A DNA stretch of 64,000 nt from Bradyrhizobium sp. NP1 (GTDB lineage: Bacteria > Pseudomonadota > Alphaproteobacteria > Rhizobiales > Xanthobacteraceae). The stretch covers positions 5,062,001-5,126,000 of the forward strand of contig NZ_CP127385.1 of NCBI RefSeq assembly GCF_030378205.1, given 5' to 3'. A program made the translations under genes and the position numbers. Under the pieces are notes generated by a model. That model was not told the DNA's origin. It did not search any database and saw nothing but the letters and a program-made list of their open reading frames with translations. Shown piece by piece: positions 10,852-62,241 of this stretch; the stretch's first letter is position 1, and each line of letters opens with the position of its first letter.

Positions 10852-10860
10852 GAGCGTCCC

Positions 10861-11193
10861 ATGCGCAACCAAATCATCGCGATCGGCTGCCTGACCGTTG
10901 GACTGTTCGCTGCCACGCCGGCGCAGGTCCAGCAATTGCCGGCGATCACATCCACGAGCGTGGACCTTCCGCCCGGCGACAGCCTGTTCCCCGGCGGGGC
11001 CAGCGCGGAAGCCATCAACAACAACTGCCTGGCCTGTCATTCGGACGACATGGTGCTCAACCAGCCGCCGCTGCCGAAGGCGACCTGGGAAGCCGAGGTG
11101 CACAAGATGATCACGGCCTACAAGGCGCCGGTCGACGAGGGCGATGTGGCGGCTATCGTCGACTATCTGGTCAAGACCAAGGGTGAGAACTAG
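10861..11193 (+). CDS. sorB: Monohaem cytochrome c subunit of sulfite oxidase (SorB-like)
   Basis: A 110-residue periplasmic cytochrome c. After a signal peptide (MRNQIIAIGCLTVGLFAATPA) comes a single haem-binding site C56-L-A-C59-H60 (NNNCLACHSDD) with a candidate axial Met in HKMITAYKAPV or SDDMVL. It should take electrons from the molybdenum subunit and pass them to the respiratory chain. It starts 9 bases after the preceding stop with GGAG in between. The stop codon TAG (11191-11193) is part of the terminal CTAG of a hairpin-element fragment. Confidence 0.88.
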   Translation: MRNQIIAIGCLTVGLFAATPAQVQQLPAITSTSVDLPPGDSLFPGGASAEAINNNCLACHSDDMVLNQPPLPKATWEAEVHKMITAYKAPVDEGDVAAIVDYLVKTKGEN

Positions 11194-11236
11194 CGGTCCG
11201 ATTCTAACATTCGCATCCCGTCGTTCCACTGGCGGC
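11190..11236. repeat. CTAG hairpin element, fragment 1 (A-arm type)
   Basis: CTAGCGGTCCGATTC followed by TAACATTCGCATCCCGTCG and then TTCCACTGG: the left arm of subfamily I with a remnant of the opposite outer end, the middle missing. CTAG overlaps the sorB stop codon. Confidence 0.7.
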
Positions 11237-12689: not shown

Positions 12690-13259
12690 ATGATGATGGG
12701 GGCTTGGGTCCGGACGCTTGGCTGCGTCGCCGTTCTTATTTTTGGCCTGTTCAGCGGGCTGGTTCGGCCTGCGACCGCGCAGACCAACCAGCAATTGCAG
12801 GCCTGCAAGAGCGACACCGTCGACCCCGACGTCAAGATCCGCGGCTGCAGCGCCTTCATCGATAGCGGACGCGCGGTCGGCGGGCGGCCGCTGCCGCGAA
12901 AGGCGCTGTGGGCGGCCACCTCGCTGCGCGGCGTCGGCTACTTCAAGAAGAACGATCTCGACCACGCGCTCACCGACCTCAGCGCCGCGATCCGCATCGA
13001 CCCGAGCCAGTCCGAAACCTACGGCTATCGCGGCCTCGTCTATGTGAACCTCAAGCAATACGAGCGCGCACGGGCCGATTTCAGCGAAGCGCTGCGGCTC
13101 AGTCCGAACTACGCCTTCGCGCGAAACTGGCTGCAATCGCTCGACCTCAGCAAGCAGATGGACACGCGCTGGGCGCGCTACCTGCAGGAAATACAGGACG
13201 AGCGCGATTACGCGAACTGGTCGGCGCCCCCGCTGGAGCTCTACCGAAATGCGAAATGA
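12690..13259 (+). CDS. Exported TPR-repeat protein
   Basis: A 189-residue exported protein. The signal peptide follows a triple-Met start (MMMGAWVRTLGCVAVLIFGL, cut after ATA). The mature part starts with a Cys-x-Cys-spaced region (QACKSDTVDPDVKIRGC), then two to three tetratricopeptide repeats (AAIRIDPSQSETYGYRGLVY and FSEALRLSPNYAFARN). Start 12690 is preferred over a longer frame because CAGGGG precedes it and the signal begins there. Its last 11 bases overlap the start of the following 1003-residue gene, so the two are translationally coupled and the TPR protein probably binds that partner in the periplasm. Confidence 0.85.
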   Translation: MMMGAWVRTLGCVAVLIFGLFSGLVRPATAQTNQQLQACKSDTVDPDVKIRGCSAFIDSGRAVGGRPLPRKALWAATSLRGVGYFKKNDLDHALTDLSAAIRIDPSQSETYGYRGLVYVNLKQYERARADFSEALRLSPNYAFARNWLQSLDLSKQMDTRWARYLQEIQDERDYANWSAPPLELYRNAK

Positions 13260-16200
13260 TCGACGCAACGGCTCAGGCCATTTCGCGGCCGCCCGCCGCA
13301 GCCGCGGAGTGCTCCCATGGATCGTGCTGGCATGGCTCCTCGGCGGCGCGCTCGCAGCCTTCGCCCAGGACGCACCGCTGAAAGTGAGCGTCAACGGCAG
13401 GATCCTTCTCGTCAATGGCGAGGCGATCACGCCGCAGGATGCAACCGGCCCGATCGATACGCTGACCAGCCGCAAGGCGAGTCTGGCGGCGCACGTGCTC
13501 GACGAACAGATCCTGCATTCGGATTTCGCCGCAGGGCTGTTCAGCCCCGCGGTGCGGGCGGCCGTGCTGTCCGACCTCGCCTCGGGCAGGCTGGTCGAAC
13601 CCTGGCAGCGCGCGCTCGGCATGGACGGCAATGCCACCGACGCCGCGCTCGCGAGCGCCACGGAAAATTTCAAGACCTGGGCGACGAAGCTCGCTGCCGA
13701 GCCCCGCGAAATGACGCTGGCGATCGCGCGGAAGGCCTATCTCGAGGGCATTCCGGCCTACCAGGAGAACGCCGCGATCTATCGCAGCGTGATGGTGAAG
13801 CACGAGCCGCTCAGCTTTGACAGCGCGCAGCGGTTTCTGCAGAACCAGATGGCGACGCGCCGCCTCGCCGTCGCCGTCGAGCTCGAAAAATATGTCAGCG
13901 CCAATACTGCGCCGGCCGCGGGCGCTGCCGATCCGGACGAGCTGCGCACGCTGCGCCAGCGGCTTCAGAGCGAGGTGCTGGACCGCGTCAGCGGCGCGGC
14001 GACGTCGGCCGCCGGGCTCGAGCGCAGCTACACAACGATGGCCAGGATCGCCGAAGGCCAGTCCGCGCCGCTGCGCAGCTATCTCGGCACCGTGAAGCCG
14101 GCGGAGATCCGCTTCACCTTCACCGGCGGCAAGGGTGGCGCGGCAGCGCCGGCGCCGAGCCCAAGCCCAAGCCCCGGCATGATCGTCACCCGGTTCGCCG
14201 GCCAGAATGCCGTCACCATCAGCGTGCCGGTGACGCCGCCCAAAAATCCACCGTTCAACATCACCGGCGGCATCCTGCCGCCCCCTGCGGGTTACACCGC
14301 CGGCTCTCCCGCCGGCGGGGGCAATCGGACAGCCGCGAGCCCCTCCGGTCCCGGCACCGGCGCGGGTGCCAATGCGGGCGGAAGCGCCGCCGCGGGCAAT
14401 AACGGCAGCGCCGCAGGTGGCGCCACGAGCAGCGGCGGCACGAGCGGCGGCGATCAGGCAACGACCCCGGCTCCCGCCGACAGCCAGCTCGCCAATAATT
14501 CGGACCGGGGCTCAGCCGTCCCCGGCGACTTCGACAATCTGAGAACCTATTCGTCGAAGCCGTATCACAGCGCGGACGGCAAGGTCTTCAATCCGATGAA
14601 CGGCATGTGGGAGAACCCGGCCGATCCCGCCGACTATCGCATTCCCACCGTCATCACCTGCTGCGACAGCACCGGTCTCGCCTTTCCCGATGATGCGCTG
14701 GAAGCCCAGCAAGACTACTGGTGGGGCGACGGCAGCGGCGTTGGCACCGATCCGAACTGCGGCAGGCTTTATTCGTGCGGGCCGGTGGTCGATCCGGGGC
14801 CGGTCACGACGAGCCCGCCGTCGGACCGCGACAACGAGATCCTGAAGGCGATCGCCTATCTCGATCAGTTTCCGCCGGACCAGAAGGGACCGGCGTTCGC
14901 CAATTTCCTGAACAGCCTCGATCCGCTGATTCGCAACCGGGCGATCGAGCTGCTCCGGCAATACAATACGGGCCATGCCGGCGCCGCGGCCGCGGCTCGT
15001 CCTCGCCTCACCGCCCAGGCGGTGCGCAACGCCCCCTCGACGTCCTATGCCTATTCCGGCCGAAGCGGCGGCAACAATTCGACCATCACGGGCGTCGGGA
15101 ACAGTGGTGGCGGCGGGCTGCGTTCGAGCTACCAGCCGATCACGCAGAACGCGGCGCAGAGCATCGTCGGCCAATACAAGTCGATTCCCGGCGGCGTCAC
15201 GCTCGAAGGTTCAAGCCCCGACCTCGGCTTTGTCAAAACCATCTCCTATTTGCCGAAGGCAAATGCCTTCCTGCTCAACAACGACATCGTCTATCTCAAC
15301 CCGGTGTCGGCGGCGGATTTCGCCGAGATCCAGCGCGCGATCGCATCCGACGACAAGATGGGCGTTTCGCTGAGCTGGCAGGCGGCGATCGTCTACGGCA
15401 AGCTGGCGCCGCAGGGCGATGTCGCGGGAAATCTGGAGCTTGCCGACCGCTTTCTCGGCGACATAGCGTTCGGACAACAGCGAGTGACCAAAGGCTATGT
15501 CTTTGCGCCCGGCTACGAGCCCAAACCGGCGACGGTGGGCGGCAACATCGCGGTCTATTTCAACATCCACGACATCCGCTTCCGCGAAGCCGCCGACGGA
15601 CACATCGCGCGCTCGGGCGTCAATGTCGACACGACGCTGGTGCCGCTGATCGCGGCGGCCGGCAGCGACGGCGGCCACCTTCCCGATCTCGACCGGGTCA
15701 AGAACGGCAACATCCCCCCGGAATACGTCGCCAACCTGCAGCACCTGCAAAACAACATCGACTACTACGGGCGCGAGCGGATCGTCCGCAAGGCGCTCGC
15801 CTATGGCGAAGCCGCCGCTTTCGCGCGGACGCTGAAGGCGAGCGGCGTGACATTCGATCTGGCCTCGCTCGGCGAGGGCGTCGCGGCCGAAAAGCGCAAC
15901 GAAGGCGCGCCGGCCGCCTCCTCCGGCGGCGAAAGCTGCGCGCTCGCCGCCCTGCACTGGACCAGCACCGAATCGATCGGCACCCGCGAAGCCTATCGCG
16001 ACCACCTCGCCCGCTTCCCGAACTGCGCCTTTGCGACCCTTGCGACCGCCCGGATCGCGTCAATTGACGCCAAGGCCGAGCCGGCGCCTGCGGTCATGCC
16101 GCACGCCAGGGAACCGGTTCACCGCGAGCCGCCCCCGAAGCGGGTCGTGGCGCGCCGCGCAACCCCGAGCGCGGCTCCGGCGGCGTCGAGCGGCACCCTC

Positions 16201-16260
16201 GATTGCAACGGGCCGATCGCGCTGGTCGGCTGCGTCAGCCACGCCCTCTCGAAACACTAG
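13249..16260 (+). CDS. Large exported protein of unknown function
   Basis: A 1003-residue predicted secreted or periplasmic protein I cannot assign. A basic N-terminus leads into a signal segment (GVLPWIVLAWLLGGALAAFAQ, about residues 20-40). Residues about 45-290 form a helical domain; a Ser/Pro run (APSPSPSPG) leads to a Gly/Ser/Ala linker of about 100 residues (about 345-420). A mixed domain with cysteine-containing segments (TVITCCDSTGLAF; DPNCGRLYSCGPVV) follows, then a folded region about 630-880. The C-terminal ALHWTSTESIGTREAYRDHL...FPNCAFATLATARI motif resembles repeats that end caspase-like or Sel1-type surface proteins. It overlaps the upstream TPR gene by 11 bases. The TAG stop is contributed by a CTAG hairpin element. 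Confidence 0.8.
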   Translation: MRNDRRNGSGHFAAARRSRGVLPWIVLAWLLGGALAAFAQDAPLKVSVNGRILLVNGEAITPQDATGPIDTLTSRKASLAAHVLDEQILHSDFAAGLFSPAVRAAVLSDLASGRLVEPWQRALGMDGNATDAALASATENFKTWATKLAAEPREMTLAIARKAYLEGIPAYQENAAIYRSVMVKHEPLSFDSAQRFLQNQMATRRLAVAVELEKYVSANTAPAAGAADPDELRTLRQRLQSEVLDRVSGAATSAAGLERSYTTMARIAEGQSAPLRSYLGTVKPAEIRFTFTGGKGGAAAPAPSPSPSPGMIVTRFAGQNAVTISVPVTPPKNPPFNITGGILPPPAGYTAGSPAGGGNRTAASPSGPGTGAGANAGGSAAAGNNGSAAGGATSSGGTSGGDQATTPAPADSQLANNSDRGSAVPGDFDNLRTYSSKPYHSADGKVFNPMNGMWENPADPADYRIPTVITCCDSTGLAFPDDALEAQQDYWWGDGSGVGTDPNCGRLYSCGPVVDPGPVTTSPPSDRDNEILKAIAYLDQFPPDQKGPAFANFLNSLDPLIRNRAIELLRQYNTGHAGAAAAARPRLTAQAVRNAPSTSYAYSGRSGGNNSTITGVGNSGGGGLRSSYQPITQNAAQSIVGQYKSIPGGVTLEGSSPDLGFVKTISYLPKANAFLLNNDIVYLNPVSAADFAEIQRAIASDDKMGVSLSWQAAIVYGKLAPQGDVAGNLELADRFLGDIAFGQQRVTKGYVFAPGYEPKPATVGGNIAVYFNIHDIRFREAADGHIARSGVNVDTTLVPLIAAAGSDGGHLPDLDRVKNGNIPPEYVANLQHLQNNIDYYGRERIVRKALAYGEAAAFARTLKASGVTFDLASLGEGVAAEKRNEGAPAASSGGESCALAALHWTSTESIGTREAYRDHLARFPNCAFATLATARIASIDAKAEPAPAVMPHAREPVHREPPPKRVVARRATPSAAPAASSGTLDCNGPIALVGCVSHALSKH

Positions 16261-16380
16261 TGTCCCGGACCCGAAGTTCGCATCATTTTGCGGCGGGCTC
16301 TCTTGCGAACTTCCGGTCCGAAAGGACACTAGCAAACTCATGATTCTAGTGTGGTGGTTCGGAAGCGAAGGCGGAACCGC
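16257..16380. repeat. CTAG hairpin element 2 (C hairpin, linker, half D hairpin)
   Basis: Hairpin C runs 16257-16332 (CTAGTGTCCCGGACCCGAAG ... GGTCCGAAAGGACACTAG). The linker CAAACTCATGATT follows, and then from 16346 CTAGTGTGGTGGTTCGGAAG, the left arm of hairpin D with a truncated remainder. CTAG at 16257-16260 contains the stop codon of the preceding gene. Confidence 0.8.
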
Positions 16381-16406
16381 CGCGCCGCCCGCGGCGTTTC
16401 TCGTCC

Positions 16407-16607
16407 ATGAGAATTCCGGACCAGTACCGCAACATCCTCCTGCTCGGAACGGTGACGTTCCTTGGCGCATTCCTTGCCGCCGGCGCCGCGTTCTGGGACG
16501 AGCCGGCGCGGACGGAGCCGAAGAAGGCCGCCCTCCATACCGGCCAGACGCCGGTCCGCATCGTCGGTCCACCTTTCGTGCCCAACACCAATCCGCGCGA
16601 GCGATAG
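16407..16607 (+). CDS. Small single-pass membrane protein
   Basis: A 66-residue protein with one hydrophobic segment (NILLLGTVTFLGAFLAAGAAF, residues 9-29) followed by a basic hydrophilic tail ending in PPFVPNTNPRER. The ribosome-binding site in front of ATG 16407 is weak, and the gene lies directly after a hairpin element. Composition and codon use are compatible with a real gene. Function unknown. Confidence 0.5.
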   Translation: MRIPDQYRNILLLGTVTFLGAFLAAGAAFWDEPARTEPKKAALHTGQTPVRIVGPPFVPNTNPRER

Positions 16608-19694: not shown

Positions 19695-19805
19695 CCAGCG
19701 GTCCGATTTTACCCGGCGAGGCACTTTTGCGAATGCTGGAATCAAGGAACCACTAGCAAATTATTGATGCCAGTGAAGCTTGGGATTTGACGTTTCCATT
19801 CACGA
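19695..19805. repeat. CTAG hairpin element 3 (decayed A hairpin, linker, half B hairpin)
   Basis: CCAGCGGTCCGATTTTACCC ... GGCACTTTTGCGAATG ... GGAACCACTAG, then linker CAAATTATTGATG, then CCAGTGAAGCTTGGGATTTG as the degraded left arm of hairpin B. It shares the inner GGCACTTTTGCGAATG with element 4. Confidence 0.75.
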
Positions 19806-20492: not shown

Positions 20493-21035
20493 ATGAACAA
20501 GGTTGCGATACGGCTCTTGACGCTGGCGATGTTCGCCTTTGCGGTGGCGGCGGCGCCGCTCCTTTCCACCGCCTATGCCGCGGGAGGCGACAATCCCTCG
20601 CCGCCCGCGTCCGGTTCCAGCAAGGACAAGAAGAAGGACAAGAGCTCGGCGATCGACAACCCGAAATTCCTCGCCGGCTATCACACGGCCTACGCCACGA
20701 TCTATGACCGCCACGATTATGCCGCCGCAATCGATCAGCTCAAGGCGCTCGGCCAGGACGACCGCGCCGATGTCGCCAACCTGATCGGCTATTCCTACCG
20801 CAAGCTCGGCGACTACAAGCTGTCGCAGGTCTGGTATGAGCGCGCGCTCACGGCCGACCCGAACCACGTCCGCACCTGGCAGTATTACGGCCTCTGGCAG
20901 CTCGAACAGGGCAACCGCGATCAGGCGGCGTATCACCTGAACAAGATCGCCCAGCTCGCCGGCACCAGCAGCGAGGAATATCGCTCGCTCGCTGCCGCCA
21001 TGGAAAAGCCGCCGGGCACTGGTCTCGTCTACTAG
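20493..21035 (+). CDS. Exported TPR protein, paralogue 1 of tandem pair
   Basis: A 180-residue exported protein with signal peptide (MNKVAIRLLTLAMFAFAVAA, cut after AYA), a Lys/Ser-rich linker (GSSKDKKKDKSSA) and two to three TPR helices (YDRHDYAAAIDQLKALG; NLIGYSYRKLGDYKLSQVWY; TADPNHVRTWQYYGLWQLEQ). GGGAGAA precedes ATG 20493. It is followed 187 bases later by a close paralogue, and the two proteins match almost residue for residue over the last 140 positions. The TAG stop lies inside the CTAG of hairpin element 4. It is probably a periplasmic protein-protein interaction factor. Confidence 0.85.
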   Translation: MNKVAIRLLTLAMFAFAVAAAPLLSTAYAAGGDNPSPPASGSSKDKKKDKSSAIDNPKFLAGYHTAYATIYDRHDYAAAIDQLKALGQDDRADVANLIGYSYRKLGDYKLSQVWYERALTADPNHVRTWQYYGLWQLEQGNRDQAAYHLNKIAQLAGTSSEEYRSLAAAMEKPPGTGLVY

Positions 21036-21190
21036 TGGTCCAATTCTAATATTCGCATTCCGTCAGGACAGGCACTTTTGCGAATGTTAGAATAAGGACC
21101 GCCAGCAAATATTGTTTTCTAGTGGAGCTTTGGGTTTGACGTTCGCATCACGATGCTCGGTTAGTAGCGAACGTCAAATCCGCTCCACTC
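21032..21190. repeat. CTAG hairpin element 4 (complete A hairpin, linker, B hairpin)
   Basis: Hairpin A 21032-21105 (CTAGTGGTCCAATTC ... GCACTTTTGCGAATGTTAG ... GGACCGCCAG), linker CAAATATTGTTTT, hairpin B from 21119 (CTAGTGGAGC ... TTTGACGTTCGC ... AGCGAACGTCAAATCC ... CTCCACTC). It sits between the tandem TPR paralogues. The first CTAG supplies the stop codon of the upstream gene. Confidence 0.85.
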
Positions 21191-21222
21191 ATACCCAAAC
21201 CAACGGTCGACAGGAGGAATGG

Positions 21223-29357: not shown

Positions 29358-29429
29358 CTAGTGGAGCGGATTTGACGTTCGCTACCCGTCTGCCACGATG
29401 GGATGCGAATGTTGGAATCGGACCACTAG
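29358..29429. repeat. CTAG hairpin element 5 (internal-deletion form)
   Basis: CTAGTGGAGCGGATTTGACG TTCGC on the left and GCGAATGTTGGAATCGGACC ACTAG on the right: one outer B arm joined to one outer A arm, the inner A', linker and B arms missing. Its right CTAG (29426-29429) gives the minus-strand TAG stop of the transglycosylase gene. Confidence 0.8.
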
Positions 29430-30430
29430 CTCGAGAAGCTGCCGCTGCGGTCGCTGAAGAGATCGAGCGGCTGCGCCGCGCCACCATTCGGCGTGGTGCC
29501 CGGGACCGAGGTCAGCGACGAGGAATTGCCCCACAGCGCCTGCACGGTGGATGACACAGGCTGGGCGTTGGCGTCGGCCTGGAACAGCGAACGGAACATC
29601 GGCGGGCGCGGCGGCGCGCCGGCATCGCTGGCCGACGCCAGCGTGACCGCCGCATTGGCGCGCGTGTCCGGAAACGTCTGCAGATAGGCCGCGTTGTCGA
29701 TGACGGGCACGGCGGAGCCCGCGCTCGCGACCGCGCCTATGGAGGGCGCGTCACCATAGATCGCCATTGCCGAGCGCGTGGCCGGCGAACCTGCCGCAGC
29801 CGCATAGCGCTGGGTCAGCACCGAATAGACCTCGTAGACATTGCGCGCGCGCCCGTCGCGTTCGAAGAAGATCGAGCGGTTGGACGCGGCCGCATTGGGA
29901 AACAGCCGCGCCGCGGAGGCCTGCGGGTTGTCCTCGGCATTGGCGATCAGCTTGGCCGCGCCGCCGACGCCCATGAAATGGGCCATGTAGAGCTCGCTGT
30001 CGGTCGGGCGGCGGCCGAGCATCCCCGTCAGCTTGAAACTGTTGGACTGCGTCAGCACCGCCGCCATGGCGGAGGCAGCCTGCGGGTCGTCGCGCAGCTT
30101 CATGATCGACTGCCGCTTGGCGGGATCGCTGACCGAATAGGTGCCGGAGGGGGACTTGGTGATGGCGTCGGCGTGGGCGCCAAAGCCGAGCTGGGCGCCC
30201 GCCTCCTTCACCGTGCCGAGCCAGGTCTGCTCGATGAACTGGAACAGCCCGTGCGCCGAAGAGGTTGAGGCGCCCGCGGCCGGGTTGAAGTCGGACTCCA
30301 TCTTCGCGGTGGTCAGCAGATATTCGAAGCTCGCGCCGGTCGCGCTCGCCGCCTGCTTGATGGCGCCGGCCACCCGCGGCGCGCGGGAGGGATCGACACC
30401 CGCCGAGGCGTTTGATGGATCGACCGCCAT
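29426..30430 (-). CDS. Lytic transglycosylase (SLT domain) protein
   Basis: A 334-residue protein. The N-terminal SLT-like domain (about residues 30-160) contains the catalytic-glutamate segment TTAKMESDFNPAAGA (E45), then SSAHGLFQFIEQTW, and AHFMGVGGAAKLI, which together define soluble lytic transglycosylases. The C-terminal half is Ala/Ser/Pro-rich and disordered. No signal peptide is seen, as in proteins exported by a flagellar or similar route, so its location is uncertain. The stop codon comes from hairpin element 5. It would cleave the peptidoglycan glycan strand. Confidence 0.88.
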   Translation of the reverse strand: MAVDPSNASAGVDPSRAPRVAGAIKQAASATGASFEYLLTTAKMESDFNPAAGASTSSAHGLFQFIEQTWLGTVKEAGAQLGFGAHADAITKSPSGTYSVSDPAKRQSIMKLRDDPQAASAMAAVLTQSNSFKLTGMLGRRPTDSELYMAHFMGVGGAAKLIANAEDNPQASAARLFPNAAASNRSIFFERDGRARNVYEVYSVLTQRYAAAAGSPATRSAMAIYGDAPSIGAVASAGSAVPVIDNAAYLQTFPDTRANAAVTLASASDAGAPPRPPMFRSLFQADANAQPVSSTVQALWGNSSSLTSVPGTTPNGGAAQPLDLFSDRSGSFSS

Positions 30431-30572
30431 GCTTGCCCTGTTGCCTTGCGAAATGAACGCGCGGCTTCCTCGTCGCCGATCAATCGGCTGAAACGCCGTT
30501 CACACTGCGGCAATCATGGTTAATGCGAGGTTAAAACGGGCCTCGCGGCAGCCAGCATCCGGATCCAGCGCT

Positions 30573-53751: not shown

Positions 53752-54306
53752 ATGAAACATCCGTCCAACCAGGAGTTCTTCGGCTATTGGGACCGCAAGC
53801 GCGGCACCGCGCGCGCCCCCGACCGCGCCGATATCGAGCCAGCCGCGCTGCGCGAGCTGCTCGGCGACATCTTCGTGCTGGCCTACGACACGCAGGCCGG
53901 TTTTCCATTCCGCGTTGCCGGCACGCGGGTTTCCGCCCTGCTCGGCCGCGACCTGAAGAATGAAGGCTTTGCCGGGCTTTTCGCCGGGGAAAGCTGCCGC
54001 GACGTCGAGGACCTCGTCGGCGGCGTGGTCGAGGACGTGCTGCCGGCAGTCGCCGGCGTCACTGCCCTCACTGCGGACGGCTCACCGGCGCATCTCGAGC
54101 TGCTGCTGCTGCCGTTTGTCGCCCGCGCCCATTCGCCGGTGAGCCTGACCGGACTGCTCGCGCCGTTCGACAGCGCGCCGGCACCGATCCGCGATCTCAC
54201 GCTGACCTCCTGGCGCTATCTGCATCCGCCGGAGACCTTCGTGCCCCGCGTGATCCGCAAGCTCGCGATCGCCCGCGGCTTCATGGTCTATGAGGGGTTG
54301 CGCTAG
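53752..54306 (+). CDS. PAS-domain protein (PAS_5 type)
   Basis: A 184-residue cytosolic protein. After KHPSNQEFFGYWDRKRGTARAP and ALRELLGDIFVLAYD the sequence follows the PAS_5-type domain found as a stand-alone protein in rhizobia (FPFRVAGTRVSALLGRDL near 50-68, and HLELLLLPFV). No output domain or catalytic motif is fused, so it may act as a sensor subunit or inhibitor. The stop codon TAG (54304-54306) is part of the CTAG of hairpin element 6. Confidence 0.82.
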   Translation: MKHPSNQEFFGYWDRKRGTARAPDRADIEPAALRELLGDIFVLAYDTQAGFPFRVAGTRVSALLGRDLKNEGFAGLFAGESCRDVEDLVGGVVEDVLPAVAGVTALTADGSPAHLELLLLPFVARAHSPVSLTGLLAPFDSAPAPIRDLTLTSWRYLHPPETFVPRVIRKLAIARGFMVYEGLR

Positions 54307-54467
54307 TGTGGCGGTTCAGAAGTCCGCATCATTATTGCCGCGCGTTCGTCATGCGGACTTCCGAACCAAAGCCACACTAGGTCAATAAGTTGCTAGTGTC
54401 CTTCGATTACGAAGTTCGCAAATGAGGGGCCCGCAGAATGATGCGAACTTCGGAATCGGGACACTAG
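54303..54467. repeat. CTAG hairpin element 6 (complete D hairpin, linker, C hairpin)
   Basis: Hairpin D 54303-54380 (CTAGTGTGGCGGTTC ... CCGAACCAAAGCCACACTAG), linker GTCAATAAGTTG, hairpin C 54393-54467 (CTAGTGTCC ... GGGACACTAG). Both hairpins are intact and bounded by CTAGTG...CACTAG. It is the best-preserved copy in this window. Confidence 0.88.
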
Positions 54468-62173: not shown

Positions 62174-62241
62174 CCAGTGGAGTGGATTTGACATTCGCTC
62201 CCCATCCTGACCGCGAGCCGGCAAAGCGAATGTCAAACTAG
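62174..62241. repeat. CTAG hairpin element 7 (B hairpin alone)
   Basis: CCAGTGGAGTGGATTTGACA TTCGCT on the left with AGCGAATGTCAAACTAG on the right. Only the B hairpin is present, 9 bases after the upstream stop. Confidence 0.7.

Follow-up and report, generated by a model that had tools for sequence, protein, structure and literature searches.

The genome of Bradyrhizobium sp. NP1 carries a two-hairpin, CTAG-inserted, non-autonomous element that is widespread in Alphaproteobacteria, and one complete copy occupies positions 54303-54467 of the window (the whole 64-kb stretch of DNA analysed, part of a 7.71-Mb single-contig genome). The element is mobile, since at the gene end that bears it at 54303 it is absent in 9/9 relatives, seven of which have an uninterrupted CTAG there, one TTAG and one CTGA. 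With a probability of roughly 0.7 we regard it as a non-autonomous MITE-like element of ~160 bp plus CTAG, in which two different inverted imperfect palindromes surround a short linker and which is moved in trans. A previous, sequence-only reading of the window had described a spreading element with two main subfamilies and covarying arms, and this description is borne out by the copy number, by the unrelated flanks of the copies and by their absence at orthologous gene ends of relatives. New over that reading are the relation of the two hairpins (B/D is an inverted relative of A/C), the identification of CTAG as the insertion site and the reach of the family beyond the genus.

Anatomy and folding

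Read in its common orientation, the unit has a CTAG followed by a first hairpin (A or C), a linker near CAAATTATTGAT and a second hairpin (B or D), and it closes with another CTAG. Statistics refer to 126 copies from the NP1 genome ("own copies"), namely 83 from DNA searches and 43 more of the 150 scored with a covariance model. The unit is ~165 bp long overall (164-169 bp in 114/126 copies), with a first hairpin (A/C) mostly of 75-77 nt and a second one (B/D) of 77-79 nt. The shared linker of the sequence-only reading is present, with 12-14 nt in 121/126 copies, but it is among the less conserved parts; the family is defined by its arms and CTAG ends, and within the consensus the stems vary less than the loops and linker.

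The 54303 element folds into two hairpins, both as RNA (z = -9.7) and as DNA (z = -10.1), with 0/200 shuffles reaching either value. Extra A's are found in the 3' arm of hairpins A/C and extra T's in the 5' arm of hairpins B/D, and because these mirror each other, hairpin B/D can be recognised as an inverted relative of A/C. The outer ends of A and B agree in part only, pairing being far better inside each hairpin. The G+C content of the element is 50% (126 own copies and 30 from a relative, G213) compared to 65% for the window. An Rfam scan of the window returned three tRNAs only above the gathering score, and no match to the element. The window contains 16 CTAGTG hexamers where 6.7 would be expected, and 0/100 shuffles reach the observed number. 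CTAG as such is about sixfold depleted in the window (33 occurrences vs. about 206 expected from base composition), and 14 of the 33 sit in elements.

The seven sites in the window are composed as follows.

54303..54380, minus strand: hairpin D (TGTGG type) of a complete CD element, the common orientation of which is on the minus strand
54381..54392, minus strand: linker, reading CAACTTATTGAC on the minus strand
54393..54467, minus strand: hairpin C (TGTCC type) of the same 54303-54467 CD element
54304..54306, plus strand: TAG stop of the upstream gene, inside the terminal CTAG of the element (54303-54306)
16257..16332, plus strand: hairpin C of a CD element, the first CTAG of which contains the stop of the predicted gene 13048-16260
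16333..16423, plus strand: linker (CAAACTCATGATT) and decayed hairpin D of the 16257 element, right limit approximate
21032..21105, plus strand: hairpin A of a complete AB element, the CTAG of which contains the stop of the upstream gene ending at 21035
21106..21118, plus strand: linker CAAATATTGTTTT of the 21032 AB element
21119..21191, plus strand: hairpin B of the 21032 AB element, right end decayed to CTCA
19695..19756, plus strand: shortened hairpin A, left end CCAG
19757..19800, plus strand: linker CAAATTATTGATG and hairpin B remnant of the 19695 site, right limit approximate
29358..29429, minus strand: one hybrid hairpin in which an internal deletion has brought together the outer halves of B and A; the predicted minus-strand gene 29426-30499 has its stop in the right CTAG of this hairpin
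11190..11223, plus strand: 5' arm of hairpin A (remnant), the CTAG of which contains the stop of the predicted gene 10852-11193
62174..62241, minus strand: decayed hairpin B, left limit approximate

Two hairpins had been assigned to each of these seven places. The assignment holds for three of them, 54303 and 21032 being complete and 16257 retaining a decayed D, whereas those at 19695, 29358, 11190 and 62174 have undergone shortening, fusion or decay. The order C-linker-D irrespective of orientation, also part of the sequence-only reading, was confirmed for 54303 and 16257.

Arm pairing and stem covariation

The rule that A is joined to B and C to D is followed by 128 of 129 plain arm pairs from own-genome loci (73 A-B, 55 C-D), as had been proposed from the window, and the sole exception is one C-B recombinant; five odd pairs, from nested or tandem junctions or having one hairpin with an inverted loop, were set aside. 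The relative G213 contributes 24 A-B and 8 C-D pairs. A further 116 A-B pairs were extracted from named-genome loci, a set that is selected for A-B by its search pattern, and when 29 taxon-labelled loci were aligned the layout was kept and paired stem changes were visible by eye.

Covariation of the arms, suspected earlier, is evident in 63 aligned own copies. Standard pairs make up 97.9% of the cells in 48 stem pairs, compared to 85.9% in shuffles (a contrast that kinship of the copies can inflate), and compensatory change, with both sides altered, is seen in 27/48 stem pairs. When the partners were slid by 1 to 3 columns, 26-40% still paired.

Copy number and distribution

At least 150 full-length copies are present in the own genome according to the covariance model, with an end-to-end match in 150/150 scored candidates, and at least 150 were likewise found in G213. 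In DNA searches of the own genome with a CD and an AB query, 40 first-look candidates were scored for each. The CD query gave 79 matches, from which 40 places were kept (one partial), the other 39 being part or reverse-strand matches of the same palindromes; the AB query gave 49 matches, of which 43 were kept, those dropped being two further tandem copies, one short fragment and three hits on the reverse strand. Median pairwise identity is 80% for 60 AB copies and 74% for 55 CD copies, the most alike reaching 99%, and near-identical copies sit in unrelated flanks.

Within the genus, 160/242 genomes, own included, have at least one match (with at most 11 scored per genome), and in a DNA search the element was found in 7/60 genomes, again including the own. 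A confinement to Bradyrhizobium is not supported, as an exact AB pattern is found in at least 120 stretches of named genomes from many alphaproteobacterial families. Among the AB matches listed are the isolates Mesorhizobium atlanticum, Afipia massiliensis, Nitrobacter winogradskyi, Stappia albiluteola and Pleomorphomonas sp. JP5, in the last of which only hairpin B was recognised. Also among the matches listed are MAGs labelled Xanthobacteraceae, Methylocystis, Rhodoplanes, Telmatospirillum, Rhodobacteraceae and others, MAG labels being sometimes wrong. The plasmid and phage collections contained no match to the CD query at E 1e-5.

Insertion at CTAG

The element inserts at CTAG, and once it is in place this tetranucleotide is found at either end. 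Besides the gene end at 54303, empty sites were sought at three other places: the AB element at 6858427 is absent in 29/29 relatives, with CTAG in 8; for the right side of the element at 5874101, 2/2 relatives lack it and both have CTAG; and that at 21032 is absent in 9/9, which have TGA stops and none a CTAG. A profile search at E 0.01 detected no family hairpin in any of these 49 relative loci. The relatives being distant, the comparison of the empty sites covers their near side. Fixation at orthologous loci, which would have spoken against a spreading element, was thus looked for at four gene ends and found at none. In five relative loci (L113, L116, L121, L125 and L133) a ~27-bp CTAG-bounded quasi-palindrome follows the stop orthologous to own 6858427, and is perhaps a mini-element or a remnant.

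In about a third of the copies examined (44/126) the stop of a flanking gene lies exactly in the terminal CTAG, which places two strong hairpins at a gene's stop codon. For each element side the best coding-like ORF was taken (ORF calls are heuristic), and of the 127 inward gene ends with a stop, 48 stop exactly at +1 of the element (46 TAG, 2 TAA) and 4 further inside, while the other 79 comprise 45 TGA, 19 TAG and 15 TAA. In a shifted control, with the left boundary moved outward by 37, 61, 113 or 149 bp, stops at +1 were found in 1/126 inward ends. Both outer ends of the element, t1 and t4, are used equally, 24 times each. The stop is in the terminal CTAG on one side in 40 elements and on both sides in four, and the latter are what one would see if a single CTAG, once shared by the ends of two convergent genes, had been doubled. 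Active targeting need not be behind this bias, because among the 19 window CTAGs outside elements 3 coincide with predicted stops and 9 fall within predicted genes, so that loss of intragenic insertions would suffice.

Insertions at inner CTAGs of other copies form at least seven clusters (L020, L027, L147, L278, L286, L307 and L334). In L020 the host copy has CTCG as its inner site, and the CD element inserted there is likewise joined to it by CTCG on both sides; in L027 the two junctions differ, one being CTGG and the other CTAG. Tandem AB copies have one CTAG in common. At 1197767 hairpin C is missing exactly between two CTAGs, which slippage between repeats could explain. The reading of CTAG as a 4-bp duplication draws on three observations: CTAG itself, the four elements between convergent genes and the one nested variant.

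The four CTAG positions, t1 to t4, are intact in 82, 80, 85 and 87 of the 126 own copies, respectively. Changed feet agree in a complementary manner within each hairpin, 17 times vs. 5.2 for t1-t2 and 22 vs. 4.3 for t3-t4 (0/1000 shuffles each). Direct agreement of the outer ends t1-t4 (10 vs. 4.8, 7/1000 shuffles) is no specific evidence for duplication, because t1-t2 (10 vs. 4.9, 12/1000) and t2-t4 (10 vs. 4.4, 9/1000) show an excess of the same size. The strong complementarity within hairpins is not needed by a plain terminal-repeat transposon, and it fits correction or selection inside each hairpin; with both feet of each hairpin covarying, it is too simple to regard CTAG as a plain duplication unconnected with the hairpin. 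Vsr-like repair of T:G mismatches in the folded CTAG might account for the frequent CCAG/CTGG pairs.

How the element may move

In the MITE-like reading that we prefer, a transposase acting in trans would make a staggered cut at the palindrome CTAG, which would turn into a 4-bp target duplication beside the TG...CA ends of the element. Given the rarity of CTAG and the restoration of the stop codon at each end, insertions at TAG stops would be harmless and accumulate, whereas intragenic insertions would be lost. The mobilising enzyme probably requires the hairpin arms; alternatively, templated correction within the palindrome may keep them similar. A side effect would be that numerous genes have two strong RNA hairpins directly after the stop codon.

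An element of REP/BIME type, travelling as single-stranded DNA and served by an HUH (Y1) enzyme that recognises hairpins, would have the hairpin as its unit and the foot CTAGs pairing as guide and target. We consider this doubtful, although several features agree with it: pairing is better kept within a hairpin than between the element ends, both feet covary (t1-t2 and t3-t4), hairpin C has been lost exactly between CTAGs at 1197767, and, as in BIMEs, each hairpin has an asymmetric bulge and the two hairpins are inverted. The distribution of the enzyme argues against it. Using Pfam model PF01797 only, at E at most 0.001, RAYT/Y1 domains were found in 10/18 element-rich and 6/17 element-poor genomes and are absent from G213, despite its copy number; the RAYT-like transposase that, according to the sequence-only reading, might track with the element does not do so. 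CTAG hairpins were seen in none of 25 fetched RAYT loci and at neither of the two own RAYT loci, and RAYT was rejected as the partner on both counts. Moreover, CTAG on both sides of insertions and CTCG at both nested junctions are not predicted by a mechanism without duplication. The two own RAYT genes, at 1466708-1467004 (minus strand) and 5441865-5442161 (plus strand) (L055 and L056), are similar to each other, and each is flanked by GTAG-tagged hairpins in inverted orientation (GTAGGGTGGGCA...TGCCCACCCTAC), which belong to another repeat family than the CTAG elements.

A more far-reaching proposal, which we hold to be unlikely, is that recognition is of the hairpin in its folded form instead of a terminal repeat. 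The element would then consist of two inverted CTAG-closed modules served by an enzyme class not yet linked to such elements, with CTAG as both target and closing pairs, and stop codons would act as a safe harbour across Alphaproteobacteria.

The IS481 family was considered because a resident member also targets CTAG, as does Bordetella IS481, and the element might be a palindromic MITE of this family. The resident IS481-type element starts with TGT and lies between 6-bp NCTAGN repeats (L353, L354, L355, L383 and others), 10/20 fetched relatives of it have such a repeat in a simple scan, and domains of the family at large (NF033577) occur in 34/35 genomes tested. In L353 the stop codon of the IS481 transposase is the TAG of the repeated target. 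Against this origin, the ends of the hairpin element abut CTAG directly, without an extra base, and their similarity to the IS481 ends does not exceed that of shuffles in the case of A and C, and is only borderline in that of B and D (best 6/300 among 48 comparisons). The own IS481 subtype is present in 4/20 element-rich genomes (nine or more matches) vs. 59/265 overall, and one genome (G020) has the subtype and no element matches. The resident subtype was set aside as the partner, its target being promising and its ends and co-occurrence unsupportive, and the origin from IS481 appears quite improbable. An autonomous copy, with hairpins flanking a gene, was also sought: the fetched loci show lone or partial hairpins and no matching pair around a gene-sized stretch, and among the RAYT and IS481 candidates tested no parental IS or autonomous partner with the same ends was found.

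That the hairpins are a host-maintained 3' UTR element (a terminator or mRNA stabiliser) and not a mobile parasite would agree with their exact position after stop codons and with the very stable RNA hairpins; yet relatives lack them at the four gene ends examined, near-identical copies occur in unrelated flanks and copies are inserted into other copies, so this explanation is very unlikely. Least credible of all is a recombination site or integron attC-like element served by a tyrosine recombinase, for which imperfect palindromes with conserved bulges and the hairpin loss between CTAGs can be cited, but insertion at CTAGs throughout the genome, with the tetranucleotide on both sides, differs from the way in which attC elements are inserted.

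With its fixed 4-bp target, sharp junctions and two subfamilies that insert into each other, the family is a clean system for the study of such elements, and it has consequences for how gene ends and 3' UTRs are annotated in rhizobia and their relatives.

Comparison with known repeats

RIME (Rhizobium intergenic mosaic elements) are palindromic mosaic intergenic elements of rhizobia and in this respect resemble the present element. In the literature searched, most subscription papers being outside reach, no description of the element was found.

Bacterial MITEs, as presented in a review that names ERIC, RUP and RPE among others (PMC10969869), resemble the element in being short, non-coding and multicopy, with the target sequence at both ends and with inverted repeats, which in the element are clear within each hairpin and partial between its outer ends. 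The present element is short, without coding capacity and dispersed in copies, and its target is found at both ends and singly at empty sites (CTAG on both sides, a single CTAG in relatives, the convergent genes and the one CTCG case). Unlike MITEs, it has two different palindromes per unit instead of one terminal-repeat pair, its target is CTAG at stop codons, and no parental IS was found among RAYT and IS481.

REP/BIME sequences associated with RAYT (PMC3733652) share with the element the pairs of imperfect hairpins, the tetranucleotide foot and the large numbers. They differ in hairpin length (20-40 nt, vs. mostly 75-79 nt in the element) and in the foot, which in REP is GTAG or CGTC at one end and in the element CTAG on both sides; the element also has no RAYT link. 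The Br-REP1 and Br-REP2 repeats of Bradyrhizobium are, according to PMC5082802, intergenic palindromic repeats located in 3' UTRs in the same bacterial group. None of five core strings of these repeats occurs in 156 elements or in the window, and identity with Br-REP1/2 was rejected because the published sequence is absent. With the IS481 family (PMC10045372) the element shares the CTAG target of the resident subtype, but it lacks the 6-bp NCTAGN repeat, and the resident IS481 is coding, has ends that do not match and belongs to a subtype that shows no clear co-occurrence with the element. The element is MITE-like with a fixed CTAG target, has the anatomy of two inverted hairpins of a BIME, and does not qualify as a REP/RAYT system.

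Variant copies

A few copies depart from the common layout. In own 5484480-5484645 (L032) the arms of hairpin D are intact but its loop seemingly lies in reverse orientation, as an inversion within the palindrome would leave it. L292 (5906-6064) is a C-linker-C homodimer with two inverted C hairpins, unlike the usual C-D. The copies at own 5463984, 6753685 and 1536906, and similar ones, have CD stems of different sequence (TGTCCCGGTT...AGCCGCCACA) and form additional sub-groups that the division into two subfamilies does not cover.
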